In this document: in pieces, positions 2,514-16,065 of the stretch
Numbering within the stretch: position 1 is the first letter of the stretch
Layout: every line of letters begins with the position of its first letter
DNA from: Flavobacteriaceae bacterium EG-1
Lineage (GTDB): Bacteria > Bacteroidota > Bacteroidia > Flavobacteriales > Flavobacteriaceae
DNA: 64,000 bases
Reading direction: 5' to 3'
Assembly: GCF_009649685.1 (NCBI RefSeq)
Contig: NZ_WJPK01000002.1
Span: 536,202 to 600,201, forward strand
The notes under the pieces: model-generated
What the model was told of the DNA's origin: nothing
The model's input: only the letters and a program-made list of their open reading frames with translations
Database searches by the model: none
Made by a program: the position numbers and the translations under genes

Positions 2514-2535
2514 ATTTGTAAGCAAGTACACTCCT

Positions 2536-2601
2536 TAACCTTTTTACAACTTACTAGTAACTTATACCTAACATTAACTTTACATTCAAGAACTTTCTTT
2601 G
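2536..2601 (+). promoter_or_regulatory. Pho-box-like array A (five 11-bp units) plus -7 element
   Basis: Five consecutive 11-bp units start at 2536, 2547, 2558, 2569 and 2580. They begin TAACCTT, CAACTTA, TAACTTA, TAACATT and TTACATT. A 7-bp conserved part plus 4 variable bases is the geometry of OmpR-family PhoB boxes. A near-consensus Bacteroidota -7 element, TTTCTTTG (2594-2601, one mismatch to TAnnTTTG), follows directly, and the ATG lies at 2622. The repeat pattern is seen directly; binding by PhoB is inferred from the phosphate-transport neighbours. Confidence 0.6.
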
Positions 2602-2621
2602 TCTTCCAATATTTTTATCTC

Positions 2622-3005
2622 ATGAAAAGAATTTTAGCATTAGTGGTTTTTCTTGTTTCTTCGAGCGTATTTGCGCAAGAAGGAGCTATTAGGGGTACTA
2701 TTCTAGATCAAGAAATGAATAACGAACCATTTTTGTTTGCTAACATTTCGCTAAAGGGAGACAATCTCAGTAAGCAAACAAATCTTTTTGGAAATTTTGA
2801 AATCAATAATGTTAAACCAGGAGACTATATTGTTCAGATTAGCTTTGCAGGCTATAATACCAAAGAGGTTCCTGTACAGGTTACAGCAGATAATATTACC
2901 GAAATACAAGAAACATTATCAGCTATCACTTTTGAATTTGATGAGACTTTACTCAACTCAAAAGAAAGTAAAAAGATAGCAGTGAATACAATTAGTTCGA
3001 AGTGA
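2622..3005 (+). CDS. Secreted CarboxypepD_reg-like domain protein
   Basis: A 127-residue protein with a signal peptide (MKRILALVVFLVSSSVFAQ) followed by one carboxypeptidase-regulatory-like beta-sandwich (about residues 21-100; GAIRGTILD, FGNFEINNVKPGDY, ISFAGY). This domain normally forms the N-terminal extension of TonB receptors in this phylum; here it stands alone without plug or barrel. The remaining 27 residues are polar. The frame is open back to 2472, but that longer start lies in the previous terminator. The ATG at 2622 fits the signal peptide and sits just after a -7 element. It is probably periplasmic or on the outer membrane. The function is unknown; a link to phosphate stress is inferred from the repeat array upstream. 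Confidence 0.8.
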   Translation: MKRILALVVFLVSSSVFAQEGAIRGTILDQEMNNEPFLFANISLKGDNLSKQTNLFGNFEINNVKPGDYIVQISFAGYNTKEVPVQVTADNITEIQETLSAITFEFDETLLNSKESKKIAVNTISSK

Positions 3006-3023
3006 TAATTAAAATATATAAAT

Positions 3024-3060
3024 AAAAAAATCCGACAGCTAAAAACTGTCGGATTTTTTT
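3024..3060. terminator. Bidirectional terminator between convergent genes
   Basis: The stem tccgacag/ctgtcgga has A-run and T-run flanks on both sides. It lies between the stop of the CarboxypepD_reg-like gene (+) and the stop of the MORN gene (-) and can serve both. Confidence 0.85.
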
Positions 3061-3078
3061 ATCTCGTGCGTTCTAATT

Positions 3079-3435
3079 TCAATTCTTAGTTACACGGACT
3101 GAATTTTCTTTATTAACAACACTAGCAATTGCATTGTTACTAAATTCAACTTCTTTTAAGGTACCGTCGTTCCAAAAATTCCATTTACCAGTTTTCATTC
3201 CATTAACATATGCACCTTCCGAAACTTTTTCACCATTTTCATCATAGCTTATCCAATCACCATGTAATTTTTTATCCAAATTAAAAGTGCCTTGTTGACT
3301 AATTTCACCATTTTCATGATAATATGTTGCTTCTATTAAGTTTGTTTCATTATTCAGTTTCATCTCCTTCTCTTTCTGAGCAAATGCAGTTGTAGAAACC
3401 AAAATTGCGGCAAGAATTATGTATATATTTTTCAT
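3079..3435 (-). CDS. MORN-repeat protein, YwqK-like
   Basis: A 118-residue exported protein. A signal peptide (MKNIYIILAAILVSTTAFAQ) precedes MORN-type repeats with the G-x-W pattern (GDWISYDENGEKVSEGAY, GKWNFWNDG). Such proteins are often auto-annotated as YwqK-family antitoxins, but no toxin partner is seen here and the signal peptide argues for a periplasmic or surface location. An ATG three codons upstream (3444) is possible; I chose 3435 because it gives a canonical signal peptide. It is convergent with the CarboxypepD_reg-like gene and divergent from the porin. No specific function can be assigned. Confidence 0.75.
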   Translation of the reverse strand: MKNIYIILAAILVSTTAFAQKEKEMKLNNETNLIEATYYHENGEISQQGTFNLDKKLHGDWISYDENGEKVSEGAYVNGMKTGKWNFWNDGTLKEVEFSNNAIASVVNKENSVRVTKN

Positions 3436-3482
3436 TTCTATCATCTTAAATTATAAATTATAAAATAAAGTTACGAATTAGA

Positions 3483-3526
3483 TAACCTTTATACAACTTT
3501 TTCGTAACATTAAATTTACATTACAA
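3483..3526 (+). promoter_or_regulatory. Pho-box-like array B (four 11-bp units)
   Basis: Units start at 3483, 3494, 3505 and 3516 and begin TAACCTT, CAACTTT, TAACATT and TTACATT, in perfect 11-bp register. They match units 1, 2, 4 and 5 of array A, as if one 11-bp unit was lost or gained. The array points to the right, away from the MORN gene, yet no gene starts within 280 bases on that side. A weak -7 candidate TAATATTG lies at 3532-3539. Confidence 0.55.
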
Positions 3527-3753
3527 ACGTTTAATATTGATTTTTAGTGTGTTACAAAATAATAATTTAAAAGATATTATGTATTTAATCGGTATTAATA
3601 ACAAATATTATTACACAACTAACTTATCAATATAACACTAAATCAATCATTTAGGCTTTTAATTAGACTAAAACCCAAGCTCCATACATTTCTTTAAGTA
3701 AATCAATTAATATTTTAATTTTCAACTTTCGATGTAGTTACTTAATAATTATC

Positions 3754-3775
3754 TAACATTAAATTAACTTTGAAA
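3754..3775 (+). promoter_or_regulatory. Pho-box-like pair C and porin promoter
   Basis: Two 11-bp units, TAACATTAAAT (3754) and TAACTTTGAAA (3765), lie 36 bases before the porin ATG. The second contains a perfect Bacteroidota -7 element TAACTTTG (3765-3772). A weaker unit beginning TAATAAT lies exactly 11 bases upstream at 3743. Activation under phosphate limitation is inferred. Confidence 0.6.
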
Positions 3776-3810
3776 AAATCTCTATTGATATCATTCGTAC
3801 AATACCTCAA

Positions 3811-5007
3811 ATGAAACTCAAGTATAATATTCTTGGATTACTTCTATTATTCCTTCTTAATTCTCTAGCTCAAGAAACGAAAACTCCAACTTTTGGGAAT
3901 GGGGTATTTAATCTCGTGGGAAAAGATAGCACTTGGACTATGAAGGTAGGTGCCAGAATGCAATTTCTTACTAAAGTCAATTGGGATCAAAATGAAGATA
4001 GTGGTTTCGAAAATCTACAGCAAGATTTTTCAATCCGCAGGGCACGTGTGAAATTTGATGGATTTGCTTATTCACCTAAACTCAAATATAAAATAGAGCT
4101 AGGAGTATCAAACAGGGATATTTCTGGTGCTTCTGAATTTACAAGCAATTCTCCTAGATATATACTAGACGGAGTACTTATGTGGAATTTCTACGGGAAT
4201 TTTGAATTTTGGATGGGACAAACCAAACTCCCCGGGAATATTGAAAGGGTAATTTCATCTGGCAACTTACAACAGGTAAATCGCTCTTTGTTAAACAGCA
4301 ATTTTACCATAGACAGAGACCAAGGCATTCAAATTAGACATCTCTTTAATCTCACAGAAAATTTCATAATTAAAGAGAAATTGGCAATCTCACAAGGAGA
4401 AGGAAGAAACATCACTAGTGGTAATCTTGGAGGTTTACAGCATACCGCCCGCTTAGAGTTTTTTCCATTCGGTGACTTTAGGGCATATATTGCCAGTGAC
4501 CTAAAACGAATTATAAGTCCAAAATTAATGCTAGCCGTTACTTTAGACCATAATAAAGATGCCGTAAAAACGCGAAGCAATCAAGGCACATATATGATAA
4601 ACGATATTGGTTTTTTCGAAACCGATATTAATACCATATTCGTAGATGTTATGTTTAAATATTTAGGCTACGCTTTTATGGCAGAATTTGCCCACCGAGA
4701 TGCTACTGATCCATTAGCTAAAAATTCTGATGGCTCGCTTACGGGAGATATTGTACAAATAGGTAATGGACTAAACCTACAAACTGGATATTTATTACGT
4801 AACAATTGGGAAGTTTCTGGTAGGTTCACAAATATTGATTTCGACAAAACTATTACGGGTTTAAGCACGCAAAACCAGTACACATTAGGACTTTCTAAGT
4901 ATATTGTAGGTCATAAATTAAAAATACAAACGGATTTTAGTTATTTAGCTGAAGAGATTAATAAAGACGAATTAATGTGGAGATTACAAGTTGATATTCA
5001 CTTTTAA
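3811..5007 (+). CDS. Phosphate-selective porin, OprP/OprO-like
   Basis: A 398-residue outer-membrane porin of the OprO/OprP family, allowing passive entry of phosphate or polyphosphate. The signal peptide ends near LNSLAQ. The family hallmark FSIRRARVKFDG, followed by a long stretch of alternating beta strands, is present at about residues 74-85. The protein ends in strand LQVDIHF with a terminal Phe, as expected for barrel assembly. Length is normal for the family. A perfect -7 element overlaps a Pho-box-like repeat upstream, and a PitA-type transporter follows in the same direction after its own repeat pair. Porin family is secure; phosphate specificity is inferred from family and context. 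Confidence 0.9.
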   Translation: MKLKYNILGLLLLFLLNSLAQETKTPTFGNGVFNLVGKDSTWTMKVGARMQFLTKVNWDQNEDSGFENLQQDFSIRRARVKFDGFAYSPKLKYKIELGVSNRDISGASEFTSNSPRYILDGVLMWNFYGNFEFWMGQTKLPGNIERVISSGNLQQVNRSLLNSNFTIDRDQGIQIRHLFNLTENFIIKEKLAISQGEGRNITSGNLGGLQHTARLEFFPFGDFRAYIASDLKRIISPKLMLAVTLDHNKDAVKTRSNQGTYMINDIGFFETDINTIFVDVMFKYLGYAFMAEFAHRDATDPLAKNSDGSLTGDIVQIGNGLNLQTGYLLRNNWEVSGRFTNIDFDKTITGLSTQNQYTLGLSKYIVGHKLKIQTDFSYLAEEINKDELMWRLQVDIHF

Positions 5008-5011
5008 AATA

Positions 5012-5055
5012 TAACCTTTAGATAACATTGTAACAAGAACTGTTATGGATATTTG
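5012..5055 (+). promoter_or_regulatory. Pho-box-like pair D before the phosphate transporter
   Basis: Units TAACCTTTAGA (5012-5022) and TAACATTGTAA (5023-5033) are adjacent and in 11-bp register. A near-consensus -7 element GATATTTG lies at 5048-5055 (one mismatch), 23 bases before the ATG. The transporter therefore probably has its own inducible promoter besides read-through from the porin. Confidence 0.55.
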
Positions 5056-5078
5056 CCAACTATTTCTTGAGTTCACTT

Positions 5079-7379
5079 ATGGATAATTTTTACTTATTAA
5101 TGATTGTTGCTCTTGTGGCTCTTGCAATTGCAGATTTAGTTGTTGGGGTTAGTAACGACGCGGTAAATTTTTTAAACTCTGCAATTGGCTCAAAAGCTAT
5201 TTCCTTTAAAACAATAATGATTGTTGCCAGCTTAGGCATTGGTTTTGGAGCAATTTTTTCAAGTGGCATGATGGAAGTAGCTCGTAAGGGAATTTTTAAC
5301 CCAGGCGAATTCTATTTTGATGAAATCATGTTCATTTTTATGGCAGTAATGATAACCGATATCTTACTGCTCGATTTCTTCAATACCTTAGGAATGCCCA
5401 CCTCTACTACAGTATCTATTGTATTTGAACTTTTGGGCGCTGCAGTGGCCATGGCACTAATTAAAATTGGTGCTGATAGTGGAAATTTTTCAGATGTTGT
5501 AAATTATATAAACACCAACAAAGCCACTGAAATTATAATAGGAATACTACTCTCGGTTGTAGTTGCCTTTTCGATAGGTGCAATTGTACAATGGTTATCG
5601 CGGTTATTATTGACATTTAATTACGGAAAAAAACCCAAATGGGTCGGTGCACTTTTTGGAGGTCTGGCTCTAGCTGCGATTACCTACTTTATTTTAATGA
5701 AGGGCATTAAAGGAACTGCATTTGCTAATGAGAATCTTGCCTCCTTAGATGGACAAACAATAAAAGACTTTTTAGAATCATATTGGTTCGTGATTTCAGG
5801 CACCAGTTTTGTGTTTTGGTCAATACTATCTTATGTTTTAGTTGAATTTTTTAAAACCAATATTTATAAACTAATTATTGGAGTTGGAACTTTTGCACTT
5901 GCACTAGCTTTTGCTGGTAACGACTTGGTCAATTTTATTGGTGTACCTATTGCCGCATGGCAATCATACGAGGCATGGTTAATTTCAGGAGTAGACCCAT
6001 CTGAATTCAGTATGGAAATACTCGCTTCAAAAGTACCTACTCCTACTTTAATGCTTTTATTCGCAGGAATCATAATGATTGCAACACTTTGGTTTTCTAA
6101 CAAAGCAAAAGGTGTTGTAAAAACATCTATAGATTTATCTAGCCAAAGTGAAACTAAAGAGCGTTTTCAACCTAATTTTCTTTCTCGAGGATTGGTTCGT
6201 GCTTCTATTGCAATAGCTCAATATACTGGCACAATAATTCCTAAACCATGGAAGGCTTCTATTGATAAACAATTTGAAAAACCGGTTATTGCTTTATCAA
6301 AAGACAAGGTACATGAATTACCTGCCTTTGATCTTGTTAGAGCAGCAGTTAATTTAATGGTTGCCGGAATCTTAATTTCAATAGCTACATCATACAAACT
6401 TCCACTTTCTACAACCTATGTAACTTTTATGGTTGCTATGGGTTCATCTCTTGCCGATAGAGCATGGGGTGCAGAAAGCGCCGTATACCGTGTTGCTGGT
6501 GTGTTAAATGTAATTGGCGGTTGGTTTATGACTGCAATTATTGCCTTTATTGCTTCAGGAGCAATTCTGTCTTTAATTAGTTTCGGTAAAGGTGCTGCAA
6601 TTGCAATCCTATTATTTGTTGCTATATTATTATTAGCAAGAAATTATATTAATTATAACAAAAAATCAAAAGAAATAAAAGAAGAGGACCAACTGCAACG
6701 AGCTGAAAGCAGCTCAATTCAAGGTGTTATTGAAGAAAGTGCAACGAATATCTCAACAGTTATTAAGCGCACTAATAAAATATATACCAATGCTATTAAT
6801 GGTCTTGCAACACAAGATTTAAATCTTCTTAAAAAGAACAAAAAACAAGGTGCAAAACTCTCAGATGAAATAGACGGTCTTCGTGATCATATTTTCTATT
6901 TTATTAAAAATTTAGATGAAGCCAGTGTTGGTGCAAGTAACTTCTATATTAATGCTTTAGCGCATTTAACAGATATATCTCAATCTTTAGAATACATTGG
7001 TAAGGTTAGTCACAAACATGTGTACAATAACCATAAAAAATTAAAATACAATCAAATTAAAGAGTTAAAGGAAATCGATCATAAACTAGATGAGATTTTT
7101 ACTAAAACTCAGAAGGCATTTGATGCACATTCCTTTGAGCAAATTGGTGAAATCTTAGGAGGTAAACAAGAATTATTTGATCTTGTTTCACAGAAAATAG
7201 CTAAGCAAATTGCTCGAACTAGGACAGAAGAATCTAGCCCAAAAAATACCACGCTATATTTTTCAATTTTGCTAGAAACTAAAGACCTTCTTACCTCAAC
7301 TACAAATCTGTTAGAGCAGTATTATCAAGAACATGATAGTAGCATTCCGCCTGCAAAACTAACAATTCCTGAAGAGTAA
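5079..7379 (+). CDS. PitA-type phosphate permease fused to a PhoU-like domain
   Basis: A 766-residue inner-membrane inorganic phosphate transporter. The two signature GxxNDxxN motifs of the Pit family are present: GVSNDAVN at residues 23-30 and AGNDLVNF in the second half, each followed by hydrophobic helices. After about residue 540 the protein becomes soluble and charged, with a helical PhoU/DUF47-like domain that probably tunes transport. This fused form is common in Bacteroidota. A TTG 12 bases upstream (5067) keeps frame, but the ATG at 5079 is the natural start. It follows the porin, so together they take phosphate across both membranes. Confidence 0.93.
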   Translation: MDNFYLLMIVALVALAIADLVVGVSNDAVNFLNSAIGSKAISFKTIMIVASLGIGFGAIFSSGMMEVARKGIFNPGEFYFDEIMFIFMAVMITDILLLDFFNTLGMPTSTTVSIVFELLGAAVAMALIKIGADSGNFSDVVNYINTNKATEIIIGILLSVVVAFSIGAIVQWLSRLLLTFNYGKKPKWVGALFGGLALAAITYFILMKGIKGTAFANENLASLDGQTIKDFLESYWFVISGTSFVFWSILSYVLVEFFKTNIYKLIIGVGTFALALAFAGNDLVNFIGVPIAAWQSYEAWLISGVDPSEFSMEILASKVPTPTLMLLFAGIIMIATLWFSNKAKGVVKTSIDLSSQSETKERFQPNFLSRGLVRASIAIAQYTGTIIPKPWKASIDKQFEKPVIALSKDKVHELPAFDLVRAAVNLMVAGILISIATSYKLPLSTTYVTFMVAMGSSLADRAWGAESAVYRVAGVLNVIGGWFMTAIIAFIASGAILSLISFGKGAAIAILLFVAILLLARNYINYNKKSKEIKEEDQLQRAESSSIQGVIEESATNISTVIKRTNKIYTNAINGLATQDLNLLKKNKKQGAKLSDEIDGLRDHIFYFIKNLDEASVGASNFYINALAHLTDISQSLEYIGKVSHKHVYNNHKKLKYNQIKELKEIDHKLDEIFTKTQKAFDAHSFEQIGEILGGKQELFDLVSQKIAKQIARTRTEESSPKNTTLYFSILLETKDLLTSTTNLLEQYYQEHDSSIPPAKLTIPEE

Positions 7380-9057: not shown

Positions 9058-10218
9058 ATGAAAAAGCATTGCAAGTTCTTTTTAATTATCTTATTCTCTG
9101 CAAGTACCGCATATTCCTGTTTTTCTCAAACAACAAATACTCTTTTTGATACCGAAGTTTCAAAAGATTCTTCTTTAACTTCTACTCCTTTTTATGCTGG
9201 CATGAATGGATACTATGCATTTAGAATTCCAACAATTATTAAAACAAAAAACACTTTAATTGCTTTTGCCGAAGGACGTAAAAACTCCACCAGTGATTTT
9301 GGGGATATAGACATTGTTTACAGGAGATCTACTAATAAAGGTAAAACCTGGCAAGCAATGCAAGTACTCTATGATTTAGACACGATGGCTGTTCAAAATC
9401 CGGTTCCTATATACGTGAAAAAACAAAACAAAATTGTGTTCTTATTTAACACTACCTCAATGAGTGAACATGATATTTTAAATAAGGATTATGAACTCAA
9501 AGATGAACGAATGGCCTTTATGACTTCTACCTTGGATGAAGGCCTTACATGGGCTCCCATAAAGAATATAACACGCTCAGTAAAAAAAGAATATTGGCGG
9601 TGGCATGCTTTTGGTCCTGTTCATGGAATAGAACTAAACTACGGCAAACACAAAGGTAGACTAGTAGTTCCTATTGCAAATAGCATAGAAAAAGGTAAAA
9701 AAGCATATTGCATGGCATTAATCTATTCCGACAATTCTGGTAAAACATGGCAAATTGGGGCAGAAGACAATAATTTAAGTGATGACATTCAGGCCAATGA
9801 AACAACAATTGCAGAACTACCTGATGGAAGAATTTATGTTAACACACGAGACCAACATGGAGGCTCACCAGAAAAAAACAGAGGAGAAGTTTTCAGTTCA
9901 GATGGTGGTGAGAGTTTTGATACTACTATTACGGAAACCGATAAATTCCCGAGTCCAGTTGTGCAGTCTGCACTATTGAGTTGGCATGGTGAAAAAGAAT
10001 TGTTGTTATTTTCAACACCATCTACGTTTAACAAGCGAGAAAACTTAATTATCATGTCTAGTAAAGACAATTCTAAAACATGGCAAACACTTTTTAAAGT
10101 TCATAAAGGATCTGCTGCATATTCAGATTTAGTGCAATTGGACCAAAACTTACTAGGTGTTATTTATGAAACTGATGATTACAAGAAAATAAGATTTTCA
10201 AGAATACCAATAGAATAA
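9058..10218 (+). CDS. Exo-alpha-sialidase (GH33-like)
   Basis: A 386-residue secreted six-bladed propeller hydrolase that releases terminal sialic acids. After a signal peptide (cleavage near CFSQ), the FRIP motif at about residue 57 carries the first catalytic-triad Arg. It is followed by the AFAEGR segment and the D in FGDIDIV. At least four Asp-box (S-x-D-x-G-x-T-W) repeats are visible: STNKGKTW, STLDEGLTW, SDNSGKTW and SKDNSKTW. Length is typical of a single-domain bacterial sialidase without CBMs. No nan catabolic genes are nearby, so sialic acid use is not shown here. A related sugar such as Kdn is possible. Confidence 0.85.
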   Translation: MKKHCKFFLIILFSASTAYSCFSQTTNTLFDTEVSKDSSLTSTPFYAGMNGYYAFRIPTIIKTKNTLIAFAEGRKNSTSDFGDIDIVYRRSTNKGKTWQAMQVLYDLDTMAVQNPVPIYVKKQNKIVFLFNTTSMSEHDILNKDYELKDERMAFMTSTLDEGLTWAPIKNITRSVKKEYWRWHAFGPVHGIELNYGKHKGRLVVPIANSIEKGKKAYCMALIYSDNSGKTWQIGAEDNNLSDDIQANETTIAELPDGRIYVNTRDQHGGSPEKNRGEVFSSDGGESFDTTITETDKFPSPVVQSALLSWHGEKELLLFSTPSTFNKRENLIIMSSKDNSKTWQTLFKVHKGSAAYSDLVQLDQNLLGVIYETDDYKKIRFSRIPIE

Positions 10219-14361: not shown

Positions 14362-16065
14362 ATGAATGTAAAAGAGCAGTATGATGCTATTGTGGTAGGA
14401 ACTGGGATAAGCGGCGGATGGGCAGCCAAGGAACTTTGCGAAAAAGGGCTTAAAACATTAGTATTAGAAAGGGGTAGAATGGTAGAGCACATTAAAGATT
14501 ACCCTACTATGAATGATGACCCTTGGGATGACCCACTTAAAACACGACTTTCTAAAGAAGATGAGAAAAACTATCACATTCAACATCGCTTAAATTGGGC
14601 ACCAGATAATACGGATAAGCACTTTTTTGTAAACGACCTAGAACACCCTTATGTTCAGACTAAACGTTTTGATTGGATACGTGGTTATCATGTAGGTGGG
14701 CGATCAATTACTTGGGGAAGACAAAGTTATAGATGGAGTGATATTGATTTTGAGGCAAATAAAAAAGAAGGAGTTAGTATCGATTGGCCAGTTCGTTATA
14801 AAGACATTTCACCTTGGTATGATAAGGTGGAGGAATATATAGGTGTAAGTGGCCAAAATTTAGGATTGAAACAATTACCAGATGGTAAATTTCAACCTCC
14901 AATGAAACTCAATTGCGTAGAAGAAGATTTTAAAAAATCTGTTTCAGAAAAATTTGAAGATGGACGCTTGGTAACAATTGGCAGAACAGCTCATATTACT
15001 GATCCAAACGCAAAAATTGAAGGTAGAACACAGTGTCAAAACAGAGACCGCTGTAGAAGAGGTTGTCCATTTGGCGGTTACTTTAGTAGTAATTCTTCAA
15101 CTTTACCCGCAGCGGAAAGAACAGGAAATATGACATTGAGGCCAAATTCAATTGTTCATGAAGTTATTTATGATGACAACACTAAATTGGCGACCGGAGT
15201 TCGAGTAATTGATACAGAAACTAATGAAAAGCTTGAATTTAAAGCTAAAATTATTTTTTTATGTGCGTCCGCAATGGCTTCTGTTGGTATTTTATTGCAA
15301 TCGAAATCTGAACGTTTTCCTAACGGATTAGGTAACGACTCTGATGCTTTAGGACGTGGTCTAATGGATCATCATTACAAATTAGGAGCATATGCCAAAG
15401 TAGACGGTTACTTAGACAAATATTATAAAGGTAGAAGAGCGAATGGATTTTACATTCCACGGTTTGTAAACTTAGATGAGAAAACAAAAAGAAAAGGTTA
15501 TTTACGTGGCTTTGGTTATCAAGGATCCGCTAGTAGAAATTCATGGTCTGAATCTGTAGCTGAATTGGGATATGGTAAAGATTTGAAAGAAGAAATATTA
15601 AAACCAGGTAAATGGACTATAGGTGTTACAGGATTTGGTGAGTTTTTACCTCATGATGACAATAGGGTAACCTTAAGTAAGACTGAAAAAGACAAATGGG
15701 GCTTACCTCAACTAGATTTTGATGTCGAATTTAAAGAGAATGAGCATAACATGCGAAAAGATATGGTAACCGATATTGTTGATATGTTTAAAGCTGCAGG
15801 TTTTAAAGATGTACAACCTTACGAAGAATCTTCTTATCCTGGATTGGGTATTCATGAAATGGGCGGTGCTAGAATGGGTCATAGCGCAAAAACTTCTATT
15901 GTAAATAAACACAATCAAGTTCACTTAGTACCTAATGTTTATGTTACCGATGGTGCTTTTATGACCTCCTCTAGTTGTGTAAATCCATCCTTAACTTATA
16001 TGGCCTTTACAGCCAGAGCTGCAGAACATGCTGCCCAACAATTAAAAGCCGGTAAATTCGCTTAA
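14362..16065 (+). CDS. GMC oxidoreductase, probable glucoside 3-dehydrogenase catalytic subunit (copy 1)
   Basis: A 567-residue FAD enzyme of the GMC family. The dinucleotide-binding GTGISG is at residues 13-18. A C-x5-C-x3-C motif at C225, C231 and C235 followed by PFGGYF resembles the Fe-S region of membrane FAD glucose dehydrogenases. The C-terminal catalytic His/Asn region reads LGIHEMGGARMG and SCVNPSLTYMAF. Enzymes of this type oxidise free sugars or glycosides, often at C3, passing electrons to the respiratory chain through partner subunits. No subunit 3 gene follows this copy, so it may share the one at 22559. No export signal is visible. It is paralogous to the protein at 20847. Confidence 0.9.
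   Translation: MNVKEQYDAIVVGTGISGGWAAKELCEKGLKTLVLERGRMVEHIKDYPTMNDDPWDDPLKTRLSKEDEKNYHIQHRLNWAPDNTDKHFFVNDLEHPYVQTKRFDWIRGYHVGGRSITWGRQSYRWSDIDFEANKKEGVSIDWPVRYKDISPWYDKVEEYIGVSGQNLGLKQLPDGKFQPPMKLNCVEEDFKKSVSEKFEDGRLVTIGRTAHITDPNAKIEGRTQCQNRDRCRRGCPFGGYFSSNSSTLPAAERTGNMTLRPNSIVHEVIYDDNTKLATGVRVIDTETNEKLEFKAKIIFLCASAMASVGILLQSKSERFPNGLGNDSDALGRGLMDHHYKLGAYAKVDGYLDKYYKGRRANGFYIPRFVNLDEKTKRKGYLRGFGYQGSASRNSWSESVAELGYGKDLKEEILKPGKWTIGVTGFGEFLPHDDNRVTLSKTEKDKWGLPQLDFDVEFKENEHNMRKDMVTDIVDMFKAAGFKDVQPYEESSYPGLGIHEMGGARMGHSAKTSIVNKHNQVHLVPNVYVTDGAFMTSSSCVNPSLTYMAFTARAAEHAAQQLKAGKFA

Follow-up and report, generated by a model that had tools for sequence, protein, structure and literature searches.

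A 64,000-nucleotide stretch of the Flavobacteriaceae bacterium EG-1 genome (the window; host genome of ten contigs, 4.45 Mb) contains four arrays, A to D, of tandem 11-bp repeats beside a porin gene and the gene of a PitA-type phosphate transporter (pitA). The repeats recur upstream of the orthologous genes of relatives and stand in a fixed phase to the −7 element of the promoter. From sequence comparisons, they are probably operators of a PhoB-type regulator whose gene lies at contig C4:450086-450769 beside that of a PhoR-like kinase. Between arrays B and C, most relatives that keep the locus also seem to encode a small RNA, its transcription being predicted from sequence features. We consider it moderately probable that the locus forms a feed-forward unit, in which PhoB arrays would drive the porin and pitA or pst genes together with a new small RNA family, which would pair, independently of Hfq, with the 5′ end of the porin message (the A-rich ribosome-entry region); the window genome and its sister G004 would have lost the RNA and the leader together.

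Tandem 11-bp repeats and their phase to the −7 element

Porin matches were present in 48 of 99 genomes, the host genome included, and the porin loci were taken from the best 30 of the 48 matching genomes; 28 of these entered the spacing count, which left out the window's own locus and one fragment. Within 600 bases upstream of the 28 porin orthologues, AAC.TT pairs occurred at spacings of 11 (41 pairs), 22 (12) and 33 (6), with all other spacings from 7 to 35 giving three pairs or fewer. At these loci, pairs at spacing 11 numbered zero both on the reverse strand and inside the porin genes. One locus (L166) was read on the wrong strand in this count and on the right strand in the later scans. 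Tested locus by locus against 100 shuffles, 27 of the 29 loci besides the window's lay above the 95th percentile, and 22 above every shuffle. Conservation is strongest for B, C and D: the C-type array recurs with its start 65–97 bases upstream of the porin match, the B-type array about 295–381 bases upstream, and D, made up of two units and GATATTTGC or a variant of it, recurs before pitA at most loci that have this gene.

The arrays and associated elements of the window are:

2535..2589, + strand: array A, of five 11-bp units, ahead of the gene for the CarbopepD_reg protein (from sequence)
2594..2601, + strand: −7 element of A, TTTCTTTG; TTTG begins 19 bases past the last unit start
3482..3525, + strand: array B, four units, inverted relative to the MORN gene (sequence, matrix)
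3530..3740, + strand: B–C space, site of the candidate small RNA in relatives (27 of 33 porin loci), without a match in the window
3742..3774, + strand: array C, three units (weak at 3742, then 3753 and 3764), porin promoter (orthologue conservation, matrix)
5011..5032, + strand: array D, two units, pitA promoter (sequence, conservation, phase)
5048..5055, + strand: −7 element of D, GATATTTG; TTTG begins 30 bases past the last unit start

A preliminary description of this DNA had listed 13 units, and all 13 starts were located where it placed them, with steps of exactly 11 inside each array; its 'three intergenic spaces' conflict with its own list of four arrays. TAACnTT is exact in eight of the 13 units, with one mismatch at 2558, 2580, 3494 and 3516, and two at 2547. 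Array C has an extra, weaker unit beyond the two described, the 11-mer TTAATAATTAT at 3742, and TTAACTTTG at 3764 corresponds in the orthologues to a repeat unit rather than to the −7 box. The TAnnTTTG-like box claimed after A, C and D is found after A and D, but the one after C is poor (CTCTATTG, 3780–3787). In G004, a genome of the same genus, a weaker counterpart of array A (11.5) occupies the same place (minus strand of L246, near 7963).

Allowing one mismatch per unit, the plus strand of the window has three run-ends of at least three units at spacing 11, the best run being four. In 200 first-order shuffles of the window the mean was 0.115 run-ends, with a run of at least three in 21 shuffles and a run of four in one. 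These window-only statistics are moderate, and by themselves suggestive; the spacing spectrum upstream of the orthologues is decisive, and because of it we accept the repeats as real. It is extremely improbable that the units arose by chance or belong to the usual AT-rich make-up of promoters. The minus strand of the real window lends this some weight, with a run of four at spacing 9 and a run of three at spacing 17, but upstream of orthologues the peaks fall at 11, 22 and 33 only, on one strand, and the TTTG phase is constant.

To score this phase, the best-scoring combination of array and TTTG was taken per site and scores of 12 or less were dropped, giving 27 C and 19 D sites from the 30 loci. 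From the last unit start to TTTG, the C sites measured 19 bases in 16, 30 in 10 and 16 in one, and the D sites 30 in 17, 29 in one and 27 in one; the distance is 19 or 30, values that differ by one unit, in 43 of the 46 sites. In the window, A follows the rule at 19 and D at 30, while C is imperfect. The Flavobacterium TonB-receptor promoter has TTTG at 19 in 12 of 12 genomes (19 being the sole distance tried). For the presumed promoter of the small RNA, where the units are degenerate and no score cut was applied, the distance was 30 in 14 of 21 loci, 19 in three, and 16, 17, 29 and 31 once each. The 7+4 geometry of OmpR-family PhoB sites, to which the units had been likened, is supported as far as the head-to-tail 11-bp period, the fixed −7 phase and the recurrence at porin, pitA and phoB go.

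We propose that each 11-bp unit (about TTAACATTNNN) would be one half-site, contacted by one winged-helix domain. Consecutive units would lie on one face of the helix with PhoB dimers aligned along the array and, since one or two turns separate the last unit from the −7 element that follows it, bound PhoB would recruit the polymerase. A −33 box would otherwise occupy the position of the last unit. On this model, A would drive the CarbopepD protein, C the porin and D pitA, and the inverted B would most likely act on the divergently oriented MORN gene. A MORN match is present at 18 porin loci, of which 15 carry CAAAnnTA (the reverse of TAnnTTTG, hence a minus-strand −7 box), the box being absent beside B in the window, L162 and L163. 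In 13 of its 16 placements it lies 16 or 27 bases before the best B units, distances equal modulo 11. We disfavour a role of B as plus-strand promoter for the porin or for the small RNA, since B accompanies the MORN gene, also in Flavobacterium, where a MORN relative (43% identity) adjoins an array in L157. We also observed that the array at the host's own phoB (L025 9860-9890) is directed away from phoB, toward a small gene at 10101; this inverted arrangement matches those of B with the MORN gene and of the Flavobacterium phoB with its receptor gene.

The regulator and the phosphate genes

Three matches to the OmpR-type DNA-binding domain are present in the host genome. For the regulator at C4:450086-450769 (L025 9084-9770), PhoB (TIGR02154) is the best of all NCBIfam families listed, and for the adjoining kinase the best are PnpS and PhoR, under their cut-offs. 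The regulator has one match of 74–75% identity in each of 12 Flavobacterium genomes. A matrix derived from relatives scores 20.6 at the host's own phoB, and its best matches in 12 of 12 Flavobacterium phoBR loci score 13.5–16.9; these genomes are close relatives and supply few independent cases. Scores above 12 were found at none of 359,172 control positions (nine 20-kb host-genome stretches, both strands).

It is improbable that the arrays belong instead to another OmpR-family regulator of the host, MtrA-like or RprY-like. In favour of this are the three matches to the DNA-binding domain in one genome and the 11-bp period that OmpR-family sites often share. The positions of the arrays, at the host's own phoB, at phoB of all 12 Flavobacterium genomes and at a porin neighbouring PitA or PstS, argue for PhoB, as do the best scores of the two remaining regulators, which are to MtrA and RprY; of the three regulators, phoB is the one whose promoter was scanned in relatives.

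Published expression data from F. johnsoniae bear on the proposed response to phosphate (PMC8115612). The gene order in Flavobacterium L296 (glycosyltransferase, OprP, PhoR, PhoB, TonB receptor) is that of the F. johnsoniae cluster (PMC8115612 Table 1). Under phosphate depletion, phoB (Fjoh_0544) and the TonB receptor (Fjoh_0545) are induced, with 3.06 and 8.02 in column FC (PMC8115612), and an array whose TTTG stands at 19 separates the corresponding pair of genes in all 12 Flavobacterium genomes. The transcriptome comparison envisaged in the preliminary description is favourable to this extent and unfavourable for oprP (Fjoh_0542), which was not induced (−1.3, false discovery rate 0.25; PMC8115612).

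The last result is one of several that weigh against arrays read by PhoB in response to phosphate. The Flavobacterium oprP has an upstream array (L296) although its F. johnsoniae counterpart is uninduced, and the counterpart of the induced glycosyltransferase Fjoh_0541 shows no array scoring above 11 (L296). The regulator scores 221 bits against the TIGR02154 cut-off of 296.2, which it does not reach. Over the 105 matrix units of relatives, A T A A C A T T A A A is the series of commonest letters, strong at TAAC and at TT, but these units, which exclude the window genus, were picked using a matrix built from A, B and D, and choosing them by their likeness to window units biases the consensus. 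Arrays were found at one of nine PhoX loci and, in the matrix scan, at none of five Flavobacterium pstS loci; the 12 kb around one of the latter (L297) had no matrix score above 9. The matrix check suggested earlier is favourable at phoB and in the control stretches and unfavourable at PhoX and pstS. Further matches lack a tie to phosphate genes: 15645-15680 in the window, outside its phosphate region (16.6, three units), L027 (17.6) and L028 (15.4), the latter two being stretches selected because they match the pattern. Genome-wide, the three-unit pattern and its reversed control gave 21 and 25 matches in the host genome, and 26 and 43, and 22 and 44, in two Flavobacterium genomes; the exact two-unit pattern gave 10 against 6 for its reverse. 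Since loose genome-wide scans show no excess over reversed controls, no regulon can be defined from them, and nothing in the analysis shows the phylum-wide Bacteroidota Pho box that had been proposed.

At the thresholds used, neither the PhoU domain nor the PstS family had a match in the host genome. Across the 33 non-Flavobacterium genomes searched, the host included, PstS is present in five, directly behind the porin in four and, in the fifth (G051), behind another barrel gene at a similar locus. At two loci (L182 of G035 and L184 of G011), pstS replaces pitA behind the porin, and the C-type array and the small RNA are retained.

The candidate small RNA and the porin leader

Aligned B–C spaces of the relatives contain a block in which a −7-like TATTTG, the palindrome GTCTTAAGAC, the sequence ATTAGTTTTTGTCGAC and a GC-rich hairpin with T after it can be recognised. 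The candidate small RNA, from the palindrome to the T run, is estimated at ~100 nt. In the terminator helix 97.4% of cells are paired and double changes occur in seven of eight pairs, which marks a conserved intrinsic terminator; a weak 5′ helix has 75.8% of cells paired. Taken together, the two helices outscored all 500 shuffles by four of the five measures used, and on the remaining one, further pair types, 63 of 500 shuffles scored as high. Rfam gave no match at the gathering score for the window and nine porin loci.

A covariance model built from 24 sequences was run against the 99 genomes under stricter filters, at the risk of missing weak matches. It found 29 genomes at E ≤2.3e-6, of which five were outside the training set (G006, G018, G034, G047 and G051), and 34 of 99 at E 0.01, where the weak matches are probably chance. 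In 27 of the 29 strong genomes the small RNA lies just upstream of the porin; in G051 it precedes another barrel gene and then pst genes, and in G018 it precedes pitA with no porin between (L235, about 4487-4593). No match was obtained in the window's genus (G000, G003 and G004). Over 33 porin loci (the 30 best loci plus L236–L238), 27 have the small RNA and all 27 have a matching leader. The leader is also missing from five of the six loci without the RNA, the sixth (G003) being a fragmented assembly.

The seed of the small RNA (upstream ATTAGTTTTTGTCG) is complementary to the porin leader CGACAAAAACTAAT, which lies just past the −7 box and shortly before the start codon. As seeds were located by GTTTT[TA]GTC and leaders by GAC[AT]AA[AG]A, the first eight pairs are mostly paired by construction (28 of 28). 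At the free offsets 8, 9, 10 and 11, pairs form in 28, 27, 27 and 27 of the 28, and at offset −1 in 24; pairing ends at offset −2 (1 of 28). One of the 28 is L234 of G051, where the partner is the other barrel gene. The mean energy of a genome's own duplex is −19.9 kcal/mol, compared with −17.1 (standard deviation 0.37) for permuted partners, and none of 100,000 permutations was as good, in a test that ignores kinship; a 26-genome version gave −19.7 and −17.3, again with no permutation as good. Compensatory double changes occur in L178, L182 and L188 and, inside the otherwise invariant core, in L237 of G047, a genome found by the model outside its training set; the search words were widened after L237 had been seen. 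The covariation supports pairing of about 12–13 nt of the porin leader with the small RNA that would be made from between B and C.

We weighed whether ATTAGTTTTTGTCG and CGACAAAAACTAAT could instead be inverted DNA sites for one protein, for example in looping. GTCGAC is palindromic, and two sites for one protein would also co-vary. This explanation is nevertheless unlikely, given that an intrinsic terminator with double changes in seven of eight stem pairs follows the upstream copy, and that the leader copy sits between the porin −7 box and the start codon. The differences between the copies at leader offsets −1 to 11 amount to 13 cells with G-U wobbles and seven that are unpaired, which also counts against inverted DNA sites.

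Exact copies of the 13-mer CGACAAAAACTAA number 38 across 33 genomes, and 34 of them lie at the small RNA or leader; its reversed control occurs 41 times. By exact 13-mer matches, the adjacent gene is the sole recurrent partner. Four sites fall outside the locus; of three examined, two look like chance, and the third (L295, in G018) stands ~90 bases before an ATG. We found no replacement RNA in the window, where shuffled B–C sequence pairs just as well with the window's porin leader as the real B–C space does (fraction 0.45 of 200 shuffles).

In Bacteroidetes messages, A is reported to be preferred at −3, at −6 and from −11 to −15, and Shine-Dalgarno sites to be missing (PMC7366714). Given this preference for A-rich leaders, a small RNA covering the porin leader would probably repress, lowering porin translation. 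If the pairing is real, the co-varying, adjacent small RNA and porin would offer a clean system for RNA control of translation, of interest because Shine-Dalgarno sites are reported to be missing from this phylum, as is an obvious Hfq from Bacteroides (PMC7366714).

Known systems and neighbouring genes

The Pho boxes of E. coli PhoB and Bacillus PhoP are tandem, head-to-tail units of ~7 bp with a 4-bp spacer, and replace the upstream core-promoter element. The arrays described here share the tandem head-to-tail units beside phosphate genes and the replacement of that element. They differ in a unit like TTAACATT, in having two to about six units, and in the 19/30 phase to a Bacteroidota-type −7 TTTG; in addition, some are inverted relative to the gene probably served. 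Porin small RNAs of the MicF/OmpF type are likewise complementary to a porin leader, but here the RNA and the porin are neighbours on one strand. To our knowledge, Hfq has not been described for the phylum.

For Riemerella anatipestifer PhoP, an in vitro DNA affinity purification sequencing (DAP-seq) motif has TTTAACA as its most conserved letters, with 583 peaks; a site upstream of phoPR was bound in a gel shift, and the motif was likened to that of ArcA (PMC9603813). This motif overlaps the unit found here. The available part of that article describes neither an 11-bp register nor a phase, its 583 peaks are not a phosphate-gene set, and 'direct repeat' and 'Pho box' occur zero times in its text. 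The F. johnsoniae Pho regulon shares phoBR, oprP and the TonB-receptor cluster, and is partly phosphate-induced, while 'Pho box', 'motif' and 'promoter' occur zero times in the text (PMC8115612). Pho boxes have been predicted in the plcP clusters of marine bacteria, with Bacteroidetes mentioned; like ours these are bioinformatic calls, and the portion available gave no box sequence or phylum (PMC4796936). B. fragilis PhoB is reported to bind a 512-bp pstC promoter fragment, and the part of the source available does not place the site within it.

The Bacteroides thetaiotaomicron small RNA GibS pairs around target start codons, in a genus without an obvious Hfq or ProQ homologue (PMC7366714). 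Unlike GibS, the present small RNA adjoins its one recurrent partner and had no Rfam match in the sequences searched. The F. psychrophilum small RNA Rfp18 has other predicted targets (PMC9723704). A literature search on flavobacterial small RNAs, PhoB and phosphate, judged by title and abstract, yielded no such RNA. Tandem 11-bp operators with a 19/30 phase rule were not found described in the material available, including PMC8115612, PMC9603813, PMC4796936 and PMC3547664. Tandem 11-bp operators as such are of a known kind. With the present form, a phosphate-control element can be defined, in terms open to testing, for a large bacterial family in which our searches met none spelled out in print, and the 19/30 TTTG rule is a simple means of finding more regulon members.

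The genes around the arrays in the window are:

2622..3005, + strand: CarboxypepD_reg-like domain protein (PF13715), 127 amino acids, signal-like N-terminus (domain match)
3079..3444, − strand: MORN-repeat-variant protein (PF07661; domain match), most likely served by array B
3811..5007, + strand: Porin_O_P family porin (PF07396), 398 amino acids (domain match)
5079..7379, + strand: PHO4/PitA-type phosphate transporter with a long C-terminal extension (domain match); ATG at 5079 from sequence, the frame in the open reading frame list starting at 5067

The extension after the PHO4 match of the transporter may substitute for PhoU.

Another strong array (23.7) lies at G000:C4:24780-24819 (minus strand of L024, about 9781-9821). 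A TTTG stands exactly 30 bases past its last unit, and beyond come ~95 nt that are gene-free on its strand and then a hairpin. Against the porin, pitA, MORN and CarbopepD leaders the possible short transcript showed no special pairing (ranks 148–298 of 301, the pitA leader being cut ~ten bases off its start). To judge from its sequence features, this array perhaps controls a phosphate-regulated non-coding transcript of the host genome.

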